From positions 62,001 to 126,000 of the forward strand of contig JAHDBN010000003.1 in assembly GCA_020630335.1 (NCBI GenBank): DNA of 64,000 nucleotides, given 5' to 3'. This document shows positions 27,654 to 62,877 of this stretch, piece after piece. Positions within the stretch are counted from its first letter, which is position 1; each line of letters begins with the position of its first letter. Under the pieces are notes generated by a model. That model searched no databases. It was not told the DNA's origin and saw only the letters and a program-made list of their open reading frames with translations. The stretch is from Bacteriovoracaceae bacterium (GTDB lineage Bacteria; Bdellovibrionota; Bacteriovoracia; Bacteriovoracales; Bacteriovoracaceae). The position numbers were made by a program, and so were the translations under genes.

Positions 27654-28308
27654 ATCTTTGATTTTAGTTAGTGGGGGGATGGATTCATTACTTATCACTG
27701 CTCTTGCACATGAAAGATCTGATGAGCTTTATGCTCTTTTTTATGATTATGGGCAAAAAACATCTAGAAAAGAAAGGTCTGCTTTCGATAAGATTTGTGA
27801 TTTCTATGATATAGCTTTTGAGAATAGAAAAGTTTTAGATCTAAAAGAATTGAAAACCATAGGTGGAAGTTCTTTAACTGATGAAGGAATTGATGTTTCA
27901 GTTGAGCTAGATAAGGATGAGATTCCTAAATCCTATGTTCCGTTCAGAAATACCATTTTTCTAAGTTTCGCAGCGTCTGTTGCTGAAGCGATGGGTGTTG
28001 ATAATATTATCATTGGAGCTGTATTAGAAGATGCTCCAGGGTATCCTGATTGCAGACCGGAGTATTATGAGTCGTTTAATAAACTTTTAAGAGTTGCTGC
28101 AAAAGATCAGTCTCTTCAAGTGGAAACACCTATTATTCATTTAAAGAAATCAGAAATACTAAGAAAATGTTTAGAATTAAAAGCTCCCTTAGAGCTTTCG
28201 TGGTCTTGTTATCAGTCAGAAGAAAAACCTTGTATGAGTTGCGATTCTTGTTTGTTACGAACAAAGGCCTTTAGAGAGATTAATCAAGAAGATCCTCTTA
28301 TAAAATGA
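27643..28308 (+). CDS. queC: 7-cyano-7-deazaguanine (preQ0) synthase
   Basis: A 221-residue ATP-dependent enzyme that makes preQ0, the precursor of queuosine. Motifs are the P-loop SGGMDS, YVPFRNTIFLS, GYPDCRPEYY and the zinc site WSCYQSEEKPCMSCDSC. No queD, queE or queF is visible nearby. The family also makes preQ0 for DNA or tRNA modification, so the end product cannot be decided. GTG at 27640 is an alternative start one codon earlier. It overlaps both neighbours. Confidence 0.95.
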   Translation: MKSKSLILVSGGMDSLLITALAHERSDELYALFYDYGQKTSRKERSAFDKICDFYDIAFENRKVLDLKELKTIGGSSLTDEGIDVSVELDKDEIPKSYVPFRNTIFLSFAASVAEAMGVDNIIIGAVLEDAPGYPDCRPEYYESFNKLLRVAAKDQSLQVETPIIHLKKSEILRKCLELKAPLELSWSCYQSEEKPCMSCDSCLLRTKAFREINQEDPLIK

Positions 28309-29282
28309 AAGTTTATCTTGTTGGAGGCGCAGTACGAGATGAGCTTTTAGGAAGAAAAGTTCATGACAAGGATTATGTCGTTGTCGGGAGCTCTCCTGAA
28401 GAAATGAAAGCAAAGGGGTTTATTTCGGTAGGGAAGTCTTTTCCCGTTTTCTTGCATCCTAAAACAAAAGAAGAATATGCTCTTGCTAGAAAAGAAATTA
28501 AAGTTGGGGAAGGTTATAAAGGGTTTAATTTCATTTTTGATAACACCGTATCCCTAGAAGAAGACCTTTGTAGAAGAGATTTTACAATCAATGCAATGGC
28601 CAGAAGTGACAAAGAAATCATTGATTTATTTAATGGACAAGAAGATCTTAGAAATAAAACATTGAGGCATGTGTCTCAACATTTCTCAGAAGATCCACTG
28701 AGAGTCTTACGAGGACTCCGTTTTGCAGCGACTCTAGGATTTAATATTGAAGCAACGACAAAAGAATTGATGAAAAATATGATAGAGAACGGAGAACTTA
28801 CAGAGCTTTCATCAGATAGGATTTTCAAGGAGCTTAAAAAGGTTTTTTCTTCTGGGTACACCTCTCGATTTATAGAGCTTCTTAAGGATTACAATTTATG
28901 TGAATTTATCTTTGGATCAGAGCTTGAGGAGAGAGAAGATCGGTTTGATCTTCTTTTTTTTGAACAACTTCTTTATGTTGGGGTAGAGGAATCTTTTTTT
29001 AAAAAATATAATGTTTCTAATCAGTTTAAAAAAATATACAAGTACTCACTTGCATTCAAAAATCTTAGTTTTTCTCCTGAGAGCATTTATGAATTTTTTA
29101 AAATGATAAGAAAAGATGAGATAAGTCTTGCTTCATTGGAAAAAATTTATCAACCCGAAAAATCATTGATTCCGACACTCAGAGCGTTAAGAAAGCTGAA
29201 AATTCCTCCTAAGATAATTTTGGCGGAAAGAATAGAAAGAGAAAAAGAATTAATTAAAGAAGTTTTTCAGAAGGAAAATTAA
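28305..29282 (+). CDS. cca: CCA tRNA nucleotidyltransferase
   Basis: A 325-residue class II nucleotidyltransferase that adds or repairs the tRNA 3' CCA end. GGAVRDELLGRKVHDKDYVV carries the two metal-binding Asp residues, and RRDFTINAMA and LRVLRGLRFAATLGF are classic. It lacks the C-terminal HD domain of the E. coli type. It ends the phosphohexomutase-queC-cca operon, its ATG overlapping the queC stop. Confidence 0.95.
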   Translation: MKVYLVGGAVRDELLGRKVHDKDYVVVGSSPEEMKAKGFISVGKSFPVFLHPKTKEEYALARKEIKVGEGYKGFNFIFDNTVSLEEDLCRRDFTINAMARSDKEIIDLFNGQEDLRNKTLRHVSQHFSEDPLRVLRGLRFAATLGFNIEATTKELMKNMIENGELTELSSDRIFKELKKVFSSGYTSRFIELLKDYNLCEFIFGSELEEREDRFDLLFFEQLLYVGVEESFFKKYNVSNQFKKIYKYSLAFKNLSFSPESIYEFFKMIRKDEISLASLEKIYQPEKSLIPTLRALRKLKIPPKIILAERIEREKELIKEVFQKEN

Positions 29283-35123: not shown

Positions 35124-35150
35124 GGGCCTTCTTAGAGGCCCTTTTTTTTT
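35124..35150. terminator. Strong bidirectional intrinsic terminator
   Basis: GGGCCT (35124-35129) and AGGCCC (35136-35141) flank a 6-base loop. Nine T follow on the plus strand and seven A precede it, so it serves both the metalloprotease gene and the convergent NTR-like gene. Confidence 0.95.
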
Positions 35151-60994: not shown

Positions 60995-61023
60995 TTGACG
61001 TAAGTGTTTTAATAAGGTGATAC
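60995..61023 (+). promoter_or_regulatory. Probable promoter of the rrf2 gene
   Basis: TTGACG (60995-61000) and TGATAC (61018-61023) are 17 bases apart. Transcription would begin near 61030, giving a leader of about 95 bases that contains the three hairpins described below. Confidence 0.55.
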
Positions 61024-61039
61024 TTATACTTGAGAAGAG

Positions 61040-61103
61040 TTTTAGTATCAATTACTAAAAAGTCTCCGAATGGCAGGGAACGCCATTTGATAGTTTTTAC
61101 TAT
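61040..61103 (+). promoter_or_regulatory. Structured leader of the rrf2 gene (three dyads)
   Basis: Three consecutive inverted repeats lie in the leader. TTTTAGTA/TACTAAAA (61040-61060) is perfect over 8 bp. AATGGC/GCCATT (61069-61087) is perfect over 6 bp. ATAGT/ACTAT (61090-61103) is perfect over 5 bp. The first could be an operator for autoregulation; the set could fold as an RNA element. Confidence 0.6.
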
Positions 61104-61125
61104 TAAACTTTATGGAGGATGAAAA

Positions 61126-61758
61126 ATGAGACTAACGTCAAAAGGACGGTACGCCGTCAGAGCAATGCTCGACCTAACAATGCACAGTAGTGGAAATCCA
61201 GTTCGACTACAAGAAATCTCTAAGAGACAAGCGATTAGCTTACATTACCTAGAGCAACTTTTTAGAAAGTTGAGAACAGGTTCTGTTGTTAAGTCTGTAA
61301 GAGGACCAGGTGGTGGTTATGTTCTTTCTAGATCTATGGATGAAATCACTATCAGTGATGTTCTGAAAAGTGTAGGAGAAAACATTGACCCTGCAAGAGA
61401 TATCAAAGGTAACCCTAGTTCAGGTGTAAACTTTGGTGAAGAAAACGCAGGTATGGTAACAACTCCTGAATTTCACATGGTTAAGAATTATTTTCAAAAT
61501 CTTGGAACGATCATGAGTGAGTACTTATCTACAACTACTCTTGGTGATCTAATGAGAAGATCTAAAGATCTTCCAATGCAAAATTTTGCAAACCAAAATC
61601 CAATTGCTCAGCAAAGTCCAATGCAATCTAGTGAATCATCATGGAGACCATCTACGATGACTAACAATGCAAGCGGAATTAGCAATAATAGTAATTCTCA
61701 AACGAGTACGAATTCATCTTCATTTATTAATAACACGAGAATTGGTTCAGATTTCTAA
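61126..61758 (+). CDS. Rrf2/IscR-family regulator without cluster cysteines, long disordered tail
   Basis: A 210-residue protein. The N-terminal winged helix begins MRLTSKGRYAVRAMLDL, with VRGPGGGYVLSRS as the wing, as in IscR. The 2Fe-2S ligand loop that normally holds three Cys is here ENIDPARDIKGNPSSGVN and contains none, so a cluster cannot be ligated in the IscR manner. From about residue 150 the chain is a Ser/Asn/Gln-rich tail with no fold. It has a GGAGG ribosome binding site. The cysteine desulfurase follows directly, as in isc or suf operons. Confidence 0.85.
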   Translation: MRLTSKGRYAVRAMLDLTMHSSGNPVRLQEISKRQAISLHYLEQLFRKLRTGSVVKSVRGPGGGYVLSRSMDEITISDVLKSVGENIDPARDIKGNPSSGVNFGEENAGMVTTPEFHMVKNYFQNLGTIMSEYLSTTTLGDLMRRSKDLPMQNFANQNPIAQQSPMQSSESSWRPSTMTNNASGISNNSNSQTSTNSSSFINNTRIGSDF

Positions 61759-61767
61759 TCAAACTCG

Positions 61768-62877
61768 GTGATATATTGTGATTACAATTCATCTGCCCCT
61801 CTAAGTGAAAACTTAAGAGGGGTTTTTTTTGATCTTCCTTTTGCGAATCCTTCTGCTCAGCATCGGGAAGGAAAAAAATCTTTAAAAGCTATAAACGAAA
61901 CAACAAAGTATTTAAAAGAATATTTTGGTGTTGATGATTATGAAGTTTTTTATCATTCAGGTTCTACTGAAGGATGCAATCAATGCATTCAGGGCTCTTT
62001 GGAAAAAGGTGATACCTTTTTTTATTTTCCCTTAGATCATTCCGCTATTTTGTCACAGGTTAATTATTTATCAAAAATGGGGATCAAGTGTGTTGAATTA
62101 GAAATTTCACAAGACTTAGACTTCTTAGAAAAAAATATTGAGATCATGAAAAAGAGTATCTCTAAAAAAGGACTTTTAAATTTCACATGGGTTCATAATG
62201 AGACAGGACGAATTTGGAACTTAGATATTATAGAACGCTTGAAAAAAGATATTCCTAATCTTTTGGTTCACGTTGATGCAACTCAGAGTATAGGGAAAAT
62301 CAAAGATTACAAGAATGTGAGATCTGCAGATTTTTTCACTTACAGTGGACATAAGTTTGGAGCCTTAAATGGAGTAGGCTTTAGCTTTTATAAGAAAAAA
62401 CCTAAAGCTTTGATTTATGGAGGGAAACATCAAAAAGGCTTAAGGGCTGGCACTTTAAATATTCAAGGTATTGTTTCGTTACGATATGCGCTTGAAGATT
62501 TAGAAAGTAAAATCTCACTTGATCATTGCATTAATATTCAAAAAGAACTGGATGATTTATTTCAAAGACTTGTTTCTAAGAATTTAATCTTGGATTTTTC
62601 ACATCAACCAAACAAGGCGTGGAATACCTTGTTTCTTGTTTTCAAAGAATTAAAAACTCAAATCCTTTTACCGGCGATTGATCTCGTAGGAGTTTCGTTA
62701 GGATCAGGATCAGCCTGCTCTTCAGGTATTTTTGAAGAGAATAAGCTTTTAAACTCTTTAGGGTTGCAAGCGTACTCTAAGAACACTTTAAGAGTATCTG
62801 TCTCTCCGCTAAGTGATTTAGCGACTTTGAAAGAGACATTACTTCGGATTGAAGGAGTGATTGAAAAACTAGCTTAA
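61768..62877 (+). CDS. Cysteine desulfurase (NifS/IscS family)
   Basis: A 369-residue PLP enzyme releasing sulfur from cysteine for Fe-S clusters and thiolated tRNA. The N-terminus YCDYNSSAPLSENLRG is the family start, so the GTG at 61768 must be right. HSGSTEGCN, HVDATQSIGK and the PLP-Lys in YSGHKFGALNGVGF follow. The catalytic Cys is in GSGSACSSGIFEENKLL. No ribosome binding site is seen, and an intrinsic terminator (61796-61830) lies inside codons about 10-21. IscU, IscA and other cluster genes are not in view. Confidence 0.92.
   Translation: MIYCDYNSSAPLSENLRGVFFDLPFANPSAQHREGKKSLKAINETTKYLKEYFGVDDYEVFYHSGSTEGCNQCIQGSLEKGDTFFYFPLDHSAILSQVNYLSKMGIKCVELEISQDLDFLEKNIEIMKKSISKKGLLNFTWVHNETGRIWNLDIIERLKKDIPNLLVHVDATQSIGKIKDYKNVRSADFFTYSGHKFGALNGVGFSFYKKKPKALIYGGKHQKGLRAGTLNIQGIVSLRYALEDLESKISLDHCINIQKELDDLFQRLVSKNLILDFSHQPNKAWNTLFLVFKELKTQILLPAIDLVGVSLGSGSACSSGIFEENKLLNSLGLQAYSKNTLRVSVSPLSDLATLKETLLRIEGVIEKLA
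61796..61830 (+). terminator. Intrinsic terminator inside the cysteine desulfurase gene
   Basis: CCCCTCT (61796-61802) and AGAGGGG (61816-61822) pair perfectly, with an inner AAG/CTT pair and a TGAAAA loop; eight T (61823-61830) follow. It has all the parts of a Rho-independent terminator. It is 28 bases into a coding frame whose conserved start must lie upstream of it. Confidence 0.85.

Follow-up and report, generated by a model that had tools for sequence, protein, structure and literature searches.

In a 64,000-nucleotide stretch of DNA from a Bacteriovoracaceae bacterium (the window; the genome containing it is 2.36 Mb), a hairpin followed by a run of T lies within the first codons of a cysteine desulfurase gene, immediately downstream of rrf2, which codes for an Rrf2-family regulator. 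The hairpin is an RNA element under selection, kept by compensatory and partly synonymous changes. Its assignment as a terminator of the rrf2/desulfurase junction that overlaps the desulfurase is well supported by sequence comparison. We further propose, with a probability of about 0.7, that it is the intrinsic terminator of rrf2, placed within desulfurase codons and doubling as an attenuator that is relieved by desulfurase translation. The features concerned are as follows.

61126 to 61758, forward strand: rrf2, Rrf2-family regulator, IscR-like (open reading frame with the stop TAA at 61756-61758; Pfam Rrf2, E 4e-31).
61768 to 62877, forward strand: cysteine desulfurase of group I, NifS/IscS-like (open reading frame; Aminotran_5, E 2e-32).
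61768 to 61770, forward strand: GTG, the weak start codon of the desulfurase (from the reading of the open reading frame).
61796 to 61822, forward strand: predicted terminator stem-loop (from sequence, folding, class-wide covariation and near relatives).
61823 to 61830, forward strand: U-tract of eight T in codons V19, F20 and F21, GTT TTT TTT (from sequence).

In the desulfurase frame, counted from the GTG at 61768, the stem occupies codons 10-18 and the T-run codons 19-21. The region 61790-61835 reads CATCTGCCCCTCTAAGTGAAAACTTAAGAGGGGTTTTTTTTGATCT and the stem-loop itself TTTTTTTT. The initial annotation described a perfect 7-bp stem followed by eight T. The site and the T-run were correctly placed, but the length of the stem was understated. 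It comprises 11 bp: seven between 61796-61802 (CCCCTCT) and 61816-61822 (AGAGGGG) and, past a bulged A at 61815, four more between 61803-61806 (AAGT) and 61811-61814 (ACTT), closed by a GAAA loop (61807-61810). The anatomy is that of an intrinsic terminator, with a U-tract immediately after a GC-rich stem-loop, and the stem begins 37 nt downstream of the rrf2 stop. The 46-nt stretch has a minimum free energy (MFE) of -17.6 kcal/mol (z -4.4), and none of 200 shuffles was equally stable. A simple terminator scan of the window did not flag the hairpin, presumably because of the bulged A. A strict scan of both strands returned only seven strong sites in the 64 kb, among which the desulfurase site scores third-highest and alone lies close to a gene start; five of the seven are intergenic.

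We compiled a class sample of 129 genomes from 48 genera and took from it 109 desulfurase orthologs, including those of Halobacteriovorax and of Halobacteriovoraceae and Bacteriovoracaceae metagenome-assembled genomes. Synonymous-codon shuffles of the same gene served as controls for folding, and shuffles and slid structures as controls for covariation. Nearly every ortholog has the stem-loop at the corresponding codons. Compared with synonymous shuffles, the MFE of the 5' coding segment has a median z of -3.95, with z < -2 in 93 of the 109; the window desulfurase itself has z -2.3. RNAalifold finds the outer 11-bp stem unaided. Among the 91 orthologs that could be aligned gap-free, 89.6% of the cells are paired. 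Double changes occupy 272 cells, whereas shuffles give 105 and slid controls no more than 107; covariation reaches 0.502 against 0.180 in shuffles (0/500) and at most 0.187 in slid controls.

The strongest signal comes from pairs that join the third positions of two codons. Such pairs are of the Watson-Crick type in 90/97, 86/97 and 71/97 orthologs (38, 27 and 26 expected). All four pair types occur at codons 9-22 (C-G 52, G-C 23, A-T 11, T-A 4), 10-21 (G-C 32, T-A 28, A-T 17, C-G 9) and 11-20. On a tree of the remaining protein sequence, hairpin codons excluded, the pair type changed at least 17, 27 and 22 times, respectively; across four third-third pairs, each changed its Watson-Crick type at least 14-27 times. 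Mismatches in the outer stem are far more often G-U (65) than A-C (23), which marks the sense RNA as the strand that folds. Pairing is reflected even in the protein: the choice between Asp and Glu at codon 23 follows the pairing of its third base with codon 8, and Ser9/Asp23 is replaced jointly by Ala9/Ala23 in step with pairing. Near relatives of the window keep a shortened hairpin, one of them (L007) with C-G to T-A changes. Since the hairpin recurs throughout the class with compensatory changes, it is not a product of chance. The initial annotation had suggested looking for conservation beyond the demands of the codons, which is what the third-third changes and shuffle z-scores reveal, and had named synonymous disruption of the stem as evidence to the contrary; we observed the opposite, namely pairing preserved by matched changes. 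Taken as a recent accident, its suggestion that the terminator "has come to overlap" the desulfurase finds no support, the hairpin being class-wide and old.

The terminator character of the element was assessed with a d'Aubenton-Carafa-type score, which is positive in 90/109 orthologs and in 9% of synonymous shuffles. The tail is also richer in U than synonymous codons would require, if modestly (nT 3.12 versus 2.75, p 2e-8). In four genomes (L022, L061, L072 and L097), a canonical terminator occupies the rrf2-desulfurase intergenic region, and the embedded one is absent in all four; it is likewise absent in three genomes (L038, L047 and L098) where rrf2 is not adjacent. This pattern is suggestive. 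Several observations weigh against a terminator. The excess of U in the tail is small and is in part due to the Phe residues that the protein requires at this place. In about seven relatives (L015, L024, L054, L070, L083, L087 and L099) a poor U-tract follows the stem, and the hairpin may thus serve a different or a further function. Five genomes (L035, L065, L088, L102 and L112) have neither an embedded nor an intergenic signal. Finally, the exchange with intergenic terminators amounts to about four independent events, too few to be significant on the tree.

A covariance model of the element gave one convincing match per genome, and its matches are confined to the class except for a single weak one. 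No comparable element was detected in desulfurases without adjacent rrf2 from other classes of the phylum, where a few reach z of about -2 to -2.8. Neither did Rfam return a relevant match, even at E 1, nor a search of a plasmid collection any match. In two genomes from another class of the phylum with adjacent rrf2 (L161 and L193), the same codons hold hairpins that differ in sequence; one of them is followed by TTTTTC. These hairpins may reflect either an older common origin or parallel evolution. The genome L199, also with adjacent rrf2, has no hairpin in the coding sequence.

The initial reading of the element as an rrf2 terminator overlapping the desulfurase agrees with the sense-strand covariation, the U-tract, the terminator score and the intergenic replacement where the element is lost. 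Its placement in codons 10-21 of a desulfurase with a conserved N-terminus is likewise borne out by the frame and the orthologs. As we envisage it, the hairpin and the T-run would form the Rho-independent terminator of rrf2 in the first ~25 desulfurase codons. Unless the hairpin is blocked, polymerase coming from the rrf2 promoter would halt at the T-run, and most of the mRNA would carry rrf2 alone. An mRNA for the whole desulfurase always contains the hairpin; by deduction, its synthesis would require read-through, and the element would therefore also be an attenuator. The likeliest release would be by a ribosome that starts at the weak desulfurase GTG/TTG and follows closely behind the polymerase, covering the 5' arm in the manner of pyrBI or ampC. 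A ribosome ending at the rrf2 stop would leave the stem uncovered. The usual spacing between this stop and the stem is 28 nt (47/97 orthologs), which, judging by the ribosome footprint, is too far for a terminating rrf2 ribosome to mask the stem. The outcome would be a low, adjustable ratio of enzyme to regulator. We infer termination at the T-run, its suppression by translation and the setting of this ratio from sequence.

Start codons are consistent with such a scheme. Taking the nearest in-frame canonical codon as the desulfurase start, we found GTG in 52 orthologs, TTG in 36 and ATG in nine (none in nine), so that 88/97 of the starts found are weak; rrf2 starts with ATG in 102/106. The GTG/TTG starts lie ~30 nt upstream of the hairpin. 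In the window, the GTG is 9 nt after the rrf2 stop and no Shine-Dalgarno sequence is evident. The nine genomes without ATG, GTG or TTG for the desulfurase near the rrf2 end (L012, L014, L020, L025, L036, L039, L051, L068 and L092) have AUC (AUA in L092) as the nearest candidate, a possible non-canonical start. RNAalifold applied to 47 equally spaced genomes revealed no conserved upstream stem and no pairing with the 5' arm. The weak starts ~30 nt upstream, together with no conserved antiterminator, point to a pyrBI/ampC-like rather than a trp-like arrangement, and the switch by ribosome position that the initial annotation proposed is compatible with them. The rest of the pyrBI/ampC-type anatomy is also present, since codons 10-18, which form the hairpin, belong to an open reading frame with a conserved N-terminus. 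In the pyr leader, termination is suppressed by a ribosome that advances behind the polymerase and returns when the ribosome stalls upstream (PMC5021804).

Three other arrangements were considered and rejected. An attenuator of the trp/his or leader-peptide type was ruled out by the lack of conserved upstream pairing in the 47 genomes and of leader peptide codons. A programmed frameshift from rrf2 into the desulfurase, an idea that arose from the seemingly missing starts, was dropped because most genomes have GTG/TTG starts overlapping the rrf2 end and because the GEINQ* end of Rrf2 is kept where the desulfurase ATG lies far downstream. A true desulfurase start downstream of the hairpin is incompatible with the conserved N-terminal motif and the lack of Met for ~100 codons.

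As to explanations of the element itself, the two arms might pair merely through codon choice, with conserved Ser-Pro-Leu and Gly-Asp-Phe codons happening to be complementary and the Phe codons making the T-run. Conserved residues are indeed encoded in parts of both arms, and invariant pairs are uninformative; however, third-third covariation through four pair types, the synonymous shuffles and the slid controls all contradict coincidence, and the residue swaps track pairing, leaving it with practically no probability. We consider it extremely improbable, too, that the site is a DNA palindrome bound by Rrf2 or another regulator. Rrf2 proteins bind palindromes and the site adjoins the rrf2 gene, but the arm sequences vary freely while their complementarity is kept, and the preference for G-T over A-C is confined to one strand.

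The stem kept with a poor U-tract in about seven relatives would fit a hairpin acting on translation or mRNA stability (early ribosome pausing, or protection of the 3' end of processed rrf2 mRNA) and not on transcription. Such a role is quite unlikely in view of the U-richness above synonymous expectation, the mostly positive terminator scores and the replacement by canonical terminators. Alternatively, a constitutive, leaky terminator might end rrf2 transcripts and allow a low desulfurase share by plain read-through, independently of translation. The terminator score and the exchange with ordinary intergenic terminators would suit it, and upstream there is no conserved alternative fold and no leader peptide codons. 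Nevertheless, the codons that hold the hairpin are translated, a setting in which ribosomes interfere with terminators (PMC5021804), and its class-wide retention in the coding sequence despite a possible intergenic site hints that position matters; we regard plain leakiness as unlikely, although deserving some weight. An rrf2 terminator that is relieved by desulfurase translation is the reading we prefer. Its broader form, in which the enzyme's first codons would be the leader of a translation-sensing attenuator throughout the class, with RNA pairing dictating synonymous codons and residues (Asp/Glu, Ser-Asp/Ala-Ala), we put forward tentatively, at slightly less than even odds. If true, the amount of desulfurase made would reflect how easily translation proceeds from the weak start, and a feedback would link Rrf2 synthesis, translation and sulfur mobilisation.

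The neighboring sequence has one further candidate feature.

60995 to 61024, forward strand: promoter-like site of rrf2, TTGACG-18-GATACT (consensus match).

By inspection, the promoter-like motif TTGACGT..AAGGTSATACT was found again in relatives. The form TTGACGT..ATACT together with TTATGGAGGA occurs repeatedly across the family. The 5' leader of rrf2 is long (61024-61125), and its hairpin GGCAGGGAACGCC at 61067-61089 seems to covary within the genus. Against protein models, the rrf2 product scores above the cut-off for rrf2_super and below it for IscR. It lacks the three-cysteine IscR ligand set: Rrf2 has no Cys in the window and zero to two in 106 orthologs. With no Cys, or mostly one in the orthologs, the protein could not bind an IscR-type cluster through the usual ligands. 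Exactly one Cys is present in 97/106 orthologs, usually within D/E-C-VGENI. Rrf2 also carries a low-complexity C-terminal tail rich in Asn, Ser, Thr and Ala (61560-61758 and orthologs), which in most relatives ends in the conserved GEINQ*, even if the desulfurase starts far downstream. The desulfurase translation has both the SGHK motif (PLP lysine) and the SACSSG motif (catalytic Cys loop) of group I; NifS is its best NCBIfam match, below the cut-off. Elsewhere in the window, 28934-28954 is terminator-like (AGAAGATC..GATCTTCT, then T7) within the open reading frame 28305-29282, and at 35124-35141 a strong terminator faces both ways, with a T-run on each strand.

A terminator that lies within coding sequence is commonly taken for an accident that translation hides. 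In the present case, a terminator-like element internal to the coding sequence is kept by selection across the class (48 genera sampled), at the same orthologous position and beneath a protein that is itself constrained. It is a clean and countable example in which a transcription signal and a protein use the same bases, and it suggests a testable way in which relatives of predatory bacteria would control sulfur mobilisation by sensing translation. It is also a warning that terminator finders excluding coding sequence will miss such elements. Our literature search, of incomplete coverage, found no paper on a terminator within a desulfurase gene.

Known systems share parts of the arrangement. 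As in operons of the IscR/CymR type, an rrf2-family regulator is followed by a cysteine desulfurase; unlike in them, Rrf2 here is without the IscR cysteine set and no other isc gene directly follows the desulfurase in the window. In E. coli, 3' ends and premature termination internal to open reading frames, some with terminator-like signals, have been reported (PMC7815308); these form a list of mapped ends, whereas here one orthologous element covaries over a class. The E. coli frd operon terminator is described as the ampC attenuator, with growth-rate-dependent anti-termination reported for ampC, and the B. pseudomallei nlpD1 terminator is the penA attenuator (PMC6045580). In both pairs, as predicted here, the terminator of the upstream gene doubles as the attenuator of the next. 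However, those terminators are untranslated and precede the start codon, whereas the present one lies wholly in the downstream coding sequence and covaries under its codons. In mechanism, a parallel would be pyrBI (PMC5021804), in which a translated stretch overlaps an intrinsic terminator that a close ribosome would suppress, with no antiterminator fold needed. What is translated in pyrBI is a peptide that serves only as leader, whereas in the present case the N-terminus of the enzyme, with its conserved protein motif, takes that place.
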